A stretch of DNA of 64,000 nucleotides, from the NCBI GenBank assembly GCA_028695495.1, contig JAQVIX010000004.1, positions 1-64,000 on the forward strand, written 5' to 3'. The notes beneath the pieces were generated by a model. That model saw only the letters and a list, made by a program, of their open reading frames with translations, made no database searches and was not told where the DNA came from. This DNA comes from Candidatus Cloacimonadota bacterium. Its GTDB lineage: Bacteria > Cloacimonadota > Cloacimonadia > Cloacimonadales > Cloacimonadaceae. The position numbers and the translations under genes are program-made. Of the stretch, positions 1,389 to 62,541 are shown in pieces (the first letter of the stretch is position 1; every line of letters begins with the position of its first letter).

Positions 1389-1553
1389 AATTGCTTCAAT
1401 GATATTGCAAACACAGAGAACAAATAGGATATTGTGGCGATTAAGCCAATCTTGAGGCTGTCTTGAATGCCAAAACATGCCTGCCGAAAGGAACCCCGTT
1501 AGGGGTGGCATTTTAGATAGCAATCGCGTTATGTAGCAATATGATAAATAAAA

Positions 1554-1627
1554 CCCCAGCCCTATTCACTATTTATGGCAGAAAACTTAGGGGAGTTTTC
1601 TGCCATAAATAGTGAATAGGGCTGGGG
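1554..1627. repeat. Perfect 34-bp palindrome with 6-nt loop
   Basis: Arms 1554-1587 and 1594-1627 are exact reverse complements, separated by TAGGGG. The flanks are ATAAAACCCC on the left and GGGGGATAAAAAGATAAT on the right. The same flanks surround another perfect palindrome at 62127-62196 whose arm sequence is largely different, so the two are members of one family. In the cell it could extrude as a cruciform or form a very stable RNA hairpin. The last codon of the R-M gene is about 165 bases upstream and no U-tract follows, so a plain terminator is not a good explanation. Confidence 0.9.
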
Positions 1628-1660: not shown

Positions 1661-1717
1661 CCCAGGGTGATATTGCCCAAAACAAGCAAGCTCATTTTGG
1701 GCAAGAACACCCTGGGC
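1661..1717. repeat. Secondary hairpin of the palindrome-associated repeat module
   Basis: CCCAGGGTG and its reverse complement CACCCTGGG form outer arms, and an inner pair is TTGCCCAAAA/TTTTGGGCAA around GCAAGCTC. The same layout occurs at 26665-26753 and 62212-62290, always followed or preceded by a GGTTTAG...AACC(A/G)CTG stretch and a short hairpin of the type GTCCC(N)GGGAC. At 1661 the module lies 33 bases after the perfect palindrome, as it does in the 62-kb copy. Confidence 0.75.
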
Positions 1718-2049
1718 TACTTAAACCGCTGCCCCTGATGGGGCAAGATTGGCTGCATGTCCACATATCTTAGGAAATAACTACATCCAAATCCATTGAG
1801 AATTAGCTACCATGCTTGAACTTGAGTCCTTTTCGCTGCCAACACCGGCAAGAGTGATATTGACTTCAAATGGCAGATACAGCATACTTCAATAAGCTTT
1901 ACAGTATATTTTCTTTCTCGGTGGTAAAAAAAACCAGTGCTTTCGGGGTTCTCGGTGGTTCAAAAAAACTTTAGTCATCCGTATTATCCGCTAAATCCTT
2001 GTAATTGCTCAATATACGTGAAGATAATCCCACCCTCACCAAAATAAAT

Positions 2050-14741: not shown

Positions 14742-15781
14742 ACTGGAATTGTAGGGGCAGACCAATGTGTCTGCCCAATGGCTACACGGATTGAGCGGAT
14801 TTTGACGGATACCACGGATTATTTTATCGTGGGAAGGCATCTTGCCGTTTGATTGTAAAAAGCGACATCTTGTCGCTATTGTTAAGGCAGGCATGGAGTT
14901 AATGGCGCTTATCCGCCTTTTAGTGTACCAATTTCAAGTGCCAAAGTGTACCAATTTTAAATACCATCTACATCATTTTACCATTATCGGATAAGTTCGG
15001 AATTTGGTATCCTCAAGAAATGCTAAAACATACAACCGAGCAGAACTCCTAACGGGGTTCCGCTCGGCAGGCATGTTGAAAATATCGGATAGGTATGGCA
15101 TTTCGGGGCATTCTGCCAAAATGAACACCGCAACAAATAATGTCCCGATATTCTTTGTTATGTTGTTCATTTTTGTATCAGGACACCCCAACCGCCGCTC
15201 ACCCGTCTCTTTCCCTCGCAATGCCCTCACCTCTACCCAGAATTTGCCGGTAGAGGCGAGGGCATTGCGAGGGTATCAATAGAGGAAGAGCCTATGCACC
15301 GAGTCTCGTACTGAAATTGGTTGACCAATAATTGAGCCAAATGAGGTGATTTATACTCGGCAAACGATTAAAAAATATGTCGTGTATAAATAATCTTAAA
15401 AGCTCAAAGCTTTTCCAGGTTCAAAAGCTCATAAAAGATGGAAGTTTAAACAGGAAATATCATGCTTGGCTGCCGAGCGGAACCCCGTTAGGAGTTCCGC
15501 TCGGTTGTATGTTTTAGCATTTCTTGAGGATACCAAATTCCGAACTTATCTGATAAAGGTAAAATGAATAGCACAGCAAGGAATGTTCACACCTGAAATG
15601 TTCCGCCACTTGAAGTCAATGGCGCTTGTGCACCGTGGAGTTTATAGCGACAAGATGTCGCATTTACAATCAAACGGCAAGATGCCGTTCCCACGATAAA
15701 ATAATCCGTGGTATCCGTCAAAATCTGTTTAATCCGTGTAACCATTGGGCATACACATTGGTCTGCCCCTACAATTCCAGT
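14742..15781. repeat. Nested inverted-repeat structure with central hairpin
   Basis: Outer arms 14742-14879 and 15644-15781 are near-reverse complements (each begins or ends with ACTGGAATTGTAGGGGCAG and contains GGCAAGATGCC and GCGACAAGATGTCGC motifs). Inner arms 14974-15075 and 15461-15566 are also reverse complements (TTCGGAATTTGGTATCCTCA; a GGAACCCCGTTAGG hairpin inside). At the centre, 15213-15237 and 15249-15273 form a 25-bp stem with one mismatch and an 11-base loop. No open frame longer than about 90 codons inside shows protein character. The structure looks like stacked non-autonomous insertions or a fold-back element. Confidence 0.8.
15213..15273. repeat. Hairpin CCCTCGCAATGCCCTC family, copy 1
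   Basis: A 25-bp stem around an 11-base loop; the arms read CCCTCGCAATGCCCTC...CTCTACC and the reverse complement with one mismatch. A diverged second copy is at 44825-44885. It sits at the exact centre of the nested inverted repeat. Confidence 0.85.
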
Positions 15782-26423: not shown

Positions 26424-26665
26424 GAGGCTGTCCAGTAATACGCAAACAACACAACATCAAAAATGTCCACACCTGAAATGTAGGGGTTCAAGGCATTGAA
26501 CCCGCCGAAATTTATACCCAACAGCTAATCATTACGGATTGTGTTTCAATTTATTACGGTGTGCGCTGCGCGCACGCTTTGTTAAAAGCGGGCGCAAAGC
26601 ATTGCGCCCCTACATTCTCGTTTCGTTGGATATCGTGCTTGGTTTTGGCATATCGGGACAGCCTC
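26424..26665 (+). mobile_element. MITE-like element, copy 1 (242 bp)
   Basis: Ends are GAGGCTGTCC and GGACAGCCTC; about 23 bases of each end match as imperfect inverted repeats (GAGGCTGTCC-x-G-xx-AT-x-C-xx-AAAC). Inside are CCTGAAATGTAGGGGTTCAA, GGCATTGAACCCGCCGAAAT, TTTGTTAAAAGCGGGCGCAA and GCGCCCCTACATT. No open frame of note, so it would need a transposase from elsewhere. It interrupts a copy of repeat family A. Copies 2 and 3 are at 30250-30492 and, reversed, 62298-62541. Confidence 0.85.
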
Positions 26666-26771
26666 AGTGGTTTAGCTAGCCCAGGATGATCGTGCCCAAA
26701 TAGCAAGCAAGCTCATATTGGGGCACTAACACCCTGGGCTACCTGAACCACTGTCCCTAACGGGACAAGAC
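26665..26771 (+). repeat. CCCAGG hairpin module, copy next to MITE
   Basis: CAGTGGTTTAGCTAGCCCAG (26665-26684) pairs with CTGGGCTACCTGAACCACTG (26734-26753) with some mismatches; inner arms contain GTGCCCAAAT/ATTGGGGCAC around GCAAGCAAGCTC. It is followed by the small hairpin GTCCCTAACGGGAC. Unlike the copies at 1.5 and 62.1 kb it lacks the long perfect palindrome. Read on the opposite strand, the 62-kb copy has the same order: MITE, then this module. Confidence 0.75.
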
Positions 26772-60896: not shown

Positions 60897-60987
60897 TCGT
60901 ACCTCCAGCTTGTAAAGCCATTTTTTTCTCGACAAAGAAATAGGCAAGGAAAAAATGACCTACATGCGAAATAAGGAGAAAAAGCCC

Positions 60988-61872
60988 ATGCAAAATACTA
61001 TCGATAGCTTCTGCGAAACCTTAAGCCTCAAAGGCAAAAGCCCCGCCACCATCGAGGGCTACCGCATTGATCTGGAGCAGTTTCTGGGCTTTCTCTCGGA
61101 AAGATTCCCCGCGCCCGATCCCGCCACCTTAGGCAAAATCCAGATTCGCAGCTTTATGAAATATTTGGCGGATAAGGGACTTACCAATAGCAGCCTGGCA
61201 CGCAAACACAGCTCCCTTAGCGAGTGGTTCAAATACCTGAAAATCAGCAAAATCCGCAGCGATAACCCCATGCAGCAAATCCGCCGTCCCAAAGTAGCCA
61301 AAGCGCTGCCGAAGTTCTTTAGCGAAGAAGAGATGGCAAACCTCTTGCGCATTCCAGATACCGATACCTGGGTGGGGCTGCGCAATAAAGCCATCTTTGA
61401 GCTCCTTTATAGCTGCGGATTGCGCATCTCCGAGCTGGCAAATCTGGCGCTCAAAGACCTCGACCCCCATAAACGCCTGATCAAAGTATGGGGCAAAGGC
61501 AATAAACAGCGGCTCATCCCCGTGGGAAAGCCCGCCCTCGATGCGCTAAACGCCTATCTGAAGCGCCGGCATGAAGTGCTGAATCCGGATAGTTCGCAGC
61601 GTATTTTCCTCAGCTATCGCGGTAAAGACCTCGATCGCCAACAGCTAAATATCATCCTCAAACGCTATCTAATGCTCATTGCCAATGAAAGCGGATATTC
61701 ACTGCATACCATCCGGCATACTTTTGCTACCCATTTGCTAAATCGGGGTGCGGATTTGAACGCCATCAAAGAGCTTTTGGGGCATGCAAATCTTTCTACC
61801 ACGGAGATTTATACGCATGTGAGCTTGGAGGATATCAAAGAGGCGTATGAGAAGGGACATCCGCGGGCCTAG
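60988..61872 (+). CDS. XerC/XerD-type tyrosine recombinase
   Basis: 294 residues from the ATG at 60988, chosen because AAGGAG stands nine bases upstream; an in-frame ATG at 60955 lies before that site. N-terminal SAM-like core-binding domain (about 1-95), then the catalytic domain with Arg in CGLRISELANLAL, Lys in WGKGNKQRLIPV, HTIRHTFATHLL (His-x-x-Arg), GHANLSTTEIYTHVS (His and the nucleophilic Tyr). All are present. The length equals chromosomal Xer proteins, which resolve chromosome dimers at dif. I found no convincing dif site in the window. It is divergent from the glycan operon and is followed directly by repeat DNA. Confidence 0.93.
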   Translation: MQNTIDSFCETLSLKGKSPATIEGYRIDLEQFLGFLSERFPAPDPATLGKIQIRSFMKYLADKGLTNSSLARKHSSLSEWFKYLKISKIRSDNPMQQIRRPKVAKALPKFFSEEEMANLLRIPDTDTWVGLRNKAIFELLYSCGLRISELANLALKDLDPHKRLIKVWGKGNKQRLIPVGKPALDALNAYLKRRHEVLNPDSSQRIFLSYRGKDLDRQQLNIILKRYLMLIANESGYSLHTIRHTFATHLLNRGADLNAIKELLGHANLSTTEIYTHVSLEDIKEAYEKGHPRA

Positions 61873-62015: not shown

Positions 62016-62126
62016 TATTTCGGTCTTGAAATGCCAAAACATTTTTCCAAACACAGGGTTAAATTAGTCCCAGCGGGACGAAAGTTCAGGTAGCATGGCG
62101 TGTCCCACATGAAAATATGAATAAAA

Positions 62127-62196
62127 CCCCCGCCCCTCCGCTATTTTTATACAAAACCCACGCGGGTTTTGTATAAAAATAGCGGAGGGGCGGGGG
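62127..62196. repeat. Perfect 33-bp palindrome with 4-nt loop (ACGC)
   Basis: Arms 62127-62159 and 62164-62196 are exact reverse complements. Flanks ATATGAATAAAACCCC (left) and GGGGGATAAAAAGATAAT (right) match those of the palindrome at 1554-1627, and the same hairpin module follows. The arm sequence between the conserved ends differs strongly from the first copy, while pairing remains perfect in both. Confidence 0.92.
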
Positions 62197-62211: not shown

Positions 62212-62297
62212 TCAAACGCATACACCACCCAGGGTGATCTTGCCTAAAACTCGCAAGCTCGTTTTTGGCAAGCACACCCTGGGCTAGCTAAACCACT
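62212..62297. repeat. CCCAGG hairpin module, third copy
   Basis: CCCAGGGTG ... CACCCTGGG outer arms with TTGCC(T)AAAA/TTTTTGGCAA inside and AAACTCGCAAGCTCG at the tip, then GCTAGCTAAACCACTG, which abuts MITE copy 3. The same order (palindrome, then module) occurs at 1554-1717. Confidence 0.75.
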
Positions 62298-62541
62298 GAG
62301 GCTGTCCAGAAATGCCAAAATCAAGCACGATATCTGCCACATTGGGAGTGTAGGGGCGCAAGGCTTTGCGCCCGCTTTTAACAAAGCGTGCTTGAAAGCG
62401 CACACCGTAATAAATTGATATTGAGTCCGTAATGATTACCGGTTGCGTGCTAATTTCGGCGGGTTCAATGCCTTGAACCCCTACATTTCAGGGGTGGACA
62501 TTTCTTGATGTTGTGTTGTTTGCGTATTTCTGGACAGCCTC
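62298..62541 (-). mobile_element. MITE-like element, copy 3 (244 bp, reversed)
   Basis: GAGGCTGTCCAGAAATGCC at the left and TATTTCTGGACAGCCTC at the right. Inside, in reverse orientation relative to copies 1 and 2, are TAGGGGCGCAAGGCTTTGCG, GCTTTTAACAAAGCGTGCTT and GGGTTCAATGCCTTGAACCC. High identity with the other two suggests recent spread. Confidence 0.88.

Follow-up and report, generated by a model that had tools for sequence, protein, structure and literature searches.

REPINs are short extragenic repeats present in many copies, with inverted conserved ends and a variable interior that still forms a hairpin through compensatory changes (PMC3116915). REPs tagged with GTAG or CGTC occur as dimers with structured spacers in many species (PMC3733652). 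Homogenised arms and an inverted spacer are the published mark of template switching at inverted repeats (PMC8604942), and template switching both creates and maintains hairpins (PMC8794818). For REPs, REPINs and RNA genes it has long been asked whether selection or mutational copying keeps long stems matched. With about 65 parallel palindromes between common flanks, the repeat described here allows selection and copying to be told apart by base-pair statistics, loop inversions and chimeras.

The window, the whole stretch of 64,000 nt that was analysed, belongs to contig C125 in a draft genome (2.72 Mb, 155 contigs, 95.3% complete). The first-pass annotation had reported two perfect palindromes with matching flanks and a common downstream hairpin module, and the sequence agrees at both sites. 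The palindromes lie at 1554-1627 (arms 34 bp, loop 6 nt) and 62127-62196 (arms 33 bp, loop 4 nt), and are the sole perfect hairpins with arms of ≥14 bp and loops of ≤20 nt in a scan of the whole window. Both are flanked by ATAAAA/CCCC on the left and GGGG(G)ATAAAAAG on the right, and a CCCAGGG...CCCTGGG hairpin lies 3' of each. The outer CCCC and the inner AAAAC/GTTTT of the arms are common to the two copies, and most of the middle differs. Most likely, each palindrome forms the centre of a REPIN-like repeat, non-autonomous and intergenic, which spreads by means of its ends.

The left half of a copy starts with a cap hairpin (e.g., GTCCCAGCGGGAC) and the tag TTYAGRTAGC; in some copies an inner CCCAGGG hairpin comes next, and an AT-rich spacer ending in AATAAAA completes it. 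From the centre to the right follow the C-rich palindrome, an AT-rich spacer starting with GATAAAAAG, the inner CCCAGGG hairpin, the inverted tag GCTANCTRAA and a cap. In the first element of the window, the left cap hairpin ACCCCGTTAGGGGT (1493-1506) and the left tag TTTTAGATAGC (1511-1521, plus strand) were recognized from the sequence. They are followed by the left spacer (1522-1553), which has an AT-rich AATAAAA end and is kept across the group of copies with left flank L0 despite their differing arms; this flank is near-identical in 19 copies. The central palindrome (1554-1627) belongs to arm family A2 and scores 86.7 bits with the structure model. Sequence and flank comparison place the AT-rich right spacer, beginning with GATAAAAAG, at 1628-1660, and a similarity search of the genome supports the inner hairpin at 1661-1716. 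Used as a query, this right flank with its inner hairpin gave 57 matches in the genome at E≤10, opposite-strand matches included. The right tag GCTACTTAAACC (1716-1727, minus strand) is inverted relative to the left tag and is followed by the right cap hairpin GCCCCTGATGGGGC (1731-1744).

The second element begins with the left cap hairpin GTCCCAGCGGGAC (62067-62079), whose 3' half plus tag was also located by pattern search at 62075, and the left tag GTTCAGGTAGC (62084-62094, plus strand), found by both sequence and pattern search. Its central palindrome (62127-62196) falls in arm family A12 and scores 81.3 bits with the structure model. The inner CCCAGGG...CCCTGGG hairpin (62228-62283; sequence and genome search) leads into the right tag GCTAGCTAAACC (62283-62294, minus strand), after which no cap is present and another repeat (GAGGCTGTCC...) starts. 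Directly after this tag, 62298-62541 is taken up by a MITE-like repeat whose ends are GAGGCTGTCCAGAAATG and ATTTCTGGACAGCCTC; pieces related to it are found at many further loci.

A unit at 26665-26766 has inverted tags around one CCCAGGATG...CCCTGGG hairpin, with the right cap GTCCCTAACGGGAC and no central palindrome, and a similar unit is located at C149:3656-3740. The central palindrome is thus absent from some copies. Inverted tags flank the window copies on either side and are also seen at C149:7886 and in the analogous elements of two other genomes (G023 and G092, see below). The tag follows TTYAGRTAG(C), reading GGTAG in some copies and GATAG or GCTAG in others. The stems have CCCC/GGGG feet in nearly all copies. 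Integron attC sites likewise combine conserved ends with a variable yet paired stem. Identity with attC sites was rejected: by inspection, the GTTRRRY/RYYYAAC boxes are absent from the foot, which is CCCC/GGGG here, and there are no systematic extrahelical bases.

A covariance model (R1) built from seven copies identified 65 distinct elements in the genome, with arms of 25-38 bp and similar flanks, and a later search of selected loci added one further element on C94. The family is therefore not confined to the two window copies, one of the outcomes that would have spoken against the first-pass annotation. Another such outcome was that the palindromes are assembly artefacts of fold-back reads in a draft genome. 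Two identical copies do lie at contig ends (C33:40785 and C73:30936), but more than 60 copies occur in distinct contexts with asymmetric loops and with flanks that differ on the two sides, and analogous elements are present in other assemblies. Since loops and flanks vary among copies, fold-back reads are not the cause, and an artefact is hardly conceivable.

Model R1 had no match in 11 congeneric genomes. Several of these palindrome-free genomes do contain the cap-and-tag repeat GGGACGNNATTTTAGATAG, with up to 42 matches in one of them (G011). Eight matches, one of them weak, were found in G023, a genome of another genus in the same family, and one match was found in G092, from the same order; screening 124 genomes of the phylum retrieved no genome beyond those already found. 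Though unrelated in sequence, the elements in G023 and G092 arrange their parts in the same order (inverted tags, inner hairpin, AT-rich spacer and C-rich palindrome), for which the element was named REPIN-like. This common layout suggests a general kind of REPIN-like element. The exact flank pattern had seven matches in 85k GTDB genomes, none of them palindromic, and these were attributed to chance. No palindromes with the exact flanks were found in IMG/VR viral contigs. A further palindromic repeat (CCTTATCAATACGGTGTTAATACGGACTC...) was observed in G023 at L198 (G023:C18, 1910-1989) and at L181, L183 and L187; some of its copies are near REPIN-like elements, and its symmetry varies among copies.

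The elements are nearly all intergenic, with three of 65 overlapped by a predicted ORF according to crude ORF calls. No recurrent neighbor gene was noticed on unsystematic inspection of the neighbors. A Y1_Tnp search of the 95.3%-complete genome gave two matches, on C68 and C80, and found no RAYT flanked by the palindrome repeat; no enzyme that would mobilize the repeat was identified. The C68 gene is truncated and IS200-like (53.1 bits, cut-off 55; 24.1 with the RAYT model, cut-off 80) and lies 202 bp from a palindrome element. At this locus (L129, C68:3015-6224), GGCTGTCCCGAAATACGAAATG-type repeat DNA is joined to the open frame of the truncated gene. The C80 gene is RAYT-like (NF047646, 54.5 bits, under the cut-off of 80) and lies amid TGTGGCATCTTGCCACAG repeats, apparently its own REP family (L130, C80:12976-16221). 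Absence of SbcCD was considered as a possible reason for the survival of long palindromes; a motif search for it, run without a positive control, gave no match in 1.54 Mb (approximately 57%) of the genome. No empty site was found among congeners in the region that follows the XerC/D-like gene at 60955-61872 of the window, because the best XerC/D-like genes of the congeners share 55-59% protein identity and synteny is lost.

Like REPINs, the elements are short, extragenic and of high copy number, with inverted REP-like ends and a variable spacer that forms a hairpin with compensatory changes (PMC3116915). They differ in that the interior holds an additional C-rich palindrome, each arm 25-38 bp long, that no RAYT of their own was found in the genome, and that the tag, TTYAGRTAG, seems not to be a strict GTAG foot. 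As no transposase could be tied to them, we call them REPIN-like and do not assign them to REPINs in the strict sense. With the GTAG/CGTC-tagged REP dimers they share stem-loop spacers and strain-specific expansion (PMC3733652). The spacers described in the available part of that paper have small stem-loops or complementary ends, and it makes no mention of long palindromes whose arms are specific to each copy.

Approximately 98% of the aligned stem bases are paired. All stems together contain 2081 Watson-Crick pairs, 13 G·T pairs, 31 other mismatches and 45 gap columns. Differing arms with perfect pairing, as noted for the window copies, hold for these two but not for the whole family: after removal of three columns from each stem end (outer and inner), 33 of 64 stems are strictly perfect, and the remainder have a mismatch or a small bulge. 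The same arms with many unpaired differences, which would also have counted against the original observation, were not encountered; the arms vary and stay paired. The proposed check for covariation of the arms gave a clear result, with changes on both sides in all 34 of the 34 model pairs. The covariation score is 0.712 compared with 0.169 for shuffled alignments, a value that overstates independence because many copies entered the alignment in both orientations and the structure had guided its fitting. Together with the 65 elements, this puts the pattern well outside what chance would produce.

Strong covariation is also what supports the reading of the hairpin as RNA (a terminator, stabilizer or small RNA) under selection on the RNA fold, and the minus strand indeed offers a GC-rich stem followed by TTTTATTT. 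An RNA constraint should favor G·U over A·C. The trimmed stems contain seven G·T and nine A·C pairs, indicating no wobble tolerance on either strand, which disfavors the RNA reading. The flanking genes, based on crude ORF calls, are oriented +/- at 13 elements, -/+ at 13, +/+ at 10 and -/- at 10, with no convergent or downstream bias, and the palindromes have no Rfam match (a search of the window returned only one tRNA). Selection on an RNA fold is consequently very improbable. An intrinsic terminator was considered separately and rejected, given the lack of gene-orientation bias and a T-run on one strand only. Covariation alone should be taken as weak evidence of RNA function in repeats of this kind.

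Substitutions between nearest-neighbor arm pairs, which are approximate counts because arms of distant families align poorly, comprise 52 transitions and 53 transversions matched on both arms, and 41 transitions and 38 transversions on one side; 78 indels are matched on both arms in the same approximate comparison. A strict equal-length recount, confined to seven pairs, gave six transitions and six transversions on both arms, and one transition and two transversions on one arm. In some copies that share their arms, the loop is exactly inverted. The loop of C116:2257 is inverted relative to those of C127:64240 and C121:38649, and that of C14:1822 relative to C121:505, the reverse-complement loop pairs being AAAAAAGCGTTTTT versus AAAAACGCTTTTTT and AATCCACGGGGATT versus AATCCCCGTGGATT. 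A third inversion, C11:7159 versus C72:12739, was found by inspection. Copying is favored by the loop flips and by G·T and A·C being about equally frequent.

Arms also appear to be exchanged between copies. The element at C149:4250 is chimeric, with a left arm of the C149:7886 type and a right arm like that of C65:24862, and it is mispaired where its two source arms differ. The elements at C108:5903 and C123:18750 have identical flanks over 44 nt to the left and 68 nt to the right of the palindrome, with differences at 14 of 38 aligned arm columns. The 19 copies with left flank L0 carry at least six arm families, and left flanks, arms and right flanks occur in mosaic combinations across copies.

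Taken together, the family is probably a REPIN-like repeat whose arms are matched by copying during replication, are swapped between copies, and which spreads via its ends. The steps proposed for this are deduced from comparison of copies inside one genome. The hairpin would form during replication and the nascent strand would copy the opposite arm by intra- or intermolecular quasipalindrome template switching. Through such switching, a point change or indel that arises on one arm would gain its matching partner on the other, and the loop could be flipped. We infer that whole arms move between copies through ectopic recombination or template switching at a palindrome presumed fragile and prone to breakage. 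The ends would be kept because they make the element spread. Both homogenised arms and exact spacer inversion between related copies, as known from quasipalindrome template switching, are found here, together with hairpin maintenance (PMC8604942, PMC8794818, PMC7202029). That process is known for individual repeats or RNA genes, whereas about 65 paralogous palindromes with apparent arm exchange between copies are present here in one genome.

The first-pass annotation had left the choice between selection for a folded form and rewriting of one arm from the other. Rewriting is better supported, by the missing G·U tolerance, the matched transversions and indels and the exact loop inversions; selection on RNA did not hold up. 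As an alternative, selection would act on a single-stranded DNA hairpin or cruciform, for instance a transposase substrate, and ordinary compensatory mutation would keep the arms paired; the REPIN paper reads compensated hairpin interiors in this way (PMC3116915). The conserved inverted ends, the conserved outer CCCC and inner AAAA, and the small number of degraded copies (C94:9844) are consistent with it. It is nevertheless unlikely as the main cause, as it leaves exact loop inversions, indels matched on both arms and the stem length of 25-38 bp unexplained, and units without a palindrome exist. The conservation of CCCC and AAAA within the arms suggests some constraint beyond pure copying, and selection on a DNA hairpin of the kind put forward for REPINs (PMC3116915) may contribute. 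Any selection for the folded DNA form would then act on top of arm copying.

Whole-arm differences between identical flanks and loop flips could also be produced by a dedicated hairpin-processing enzyme that excises and re-ligates or rewrites the palindrome cassette in either orientation. This is highly doubtful, as no associated gene was identified and template switching with recombination suffices. Somewhat less improbable, though still a slim prospect, is an exchangeable hairpin cassette, in which an enzyme or hairpin-break repair would swap another copy's hairpin between fixed flanks, in either orientation and independently of element movement.

The first-pass annotation knew of no described family with this behaviour. 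REPINs with conserved ends and compensated interiors have been published (PMC3116915); new in the present repeat are its long palindromic core, the many copies that can be compared in parallel, the flipped loops and the apparent exchange of arms from copy to copy.

Other palindromic DNA was observed in the same genome. A second family of palindromic repeats, CCCTCRCAATGCCCTCRCCTC...GAGGYGAGGGCATTGYGAGGG, varies in its loop and is present in the window at 15213-15273 and also at C14:2120, C29:27267, C41:7616, C57:28500, C64:8251, C74:6361, C75:5224, C108:6080, C130:15502 and C143:9974. A perfect palindrome with arms of 29 bp (TTGGGGGCACGACGACCCTGCTGTGCATC...), unrelated to the REPIN-like family, is found near two contig ends, at C73:40-105 (L331) and C99:5753-5818 (L378).
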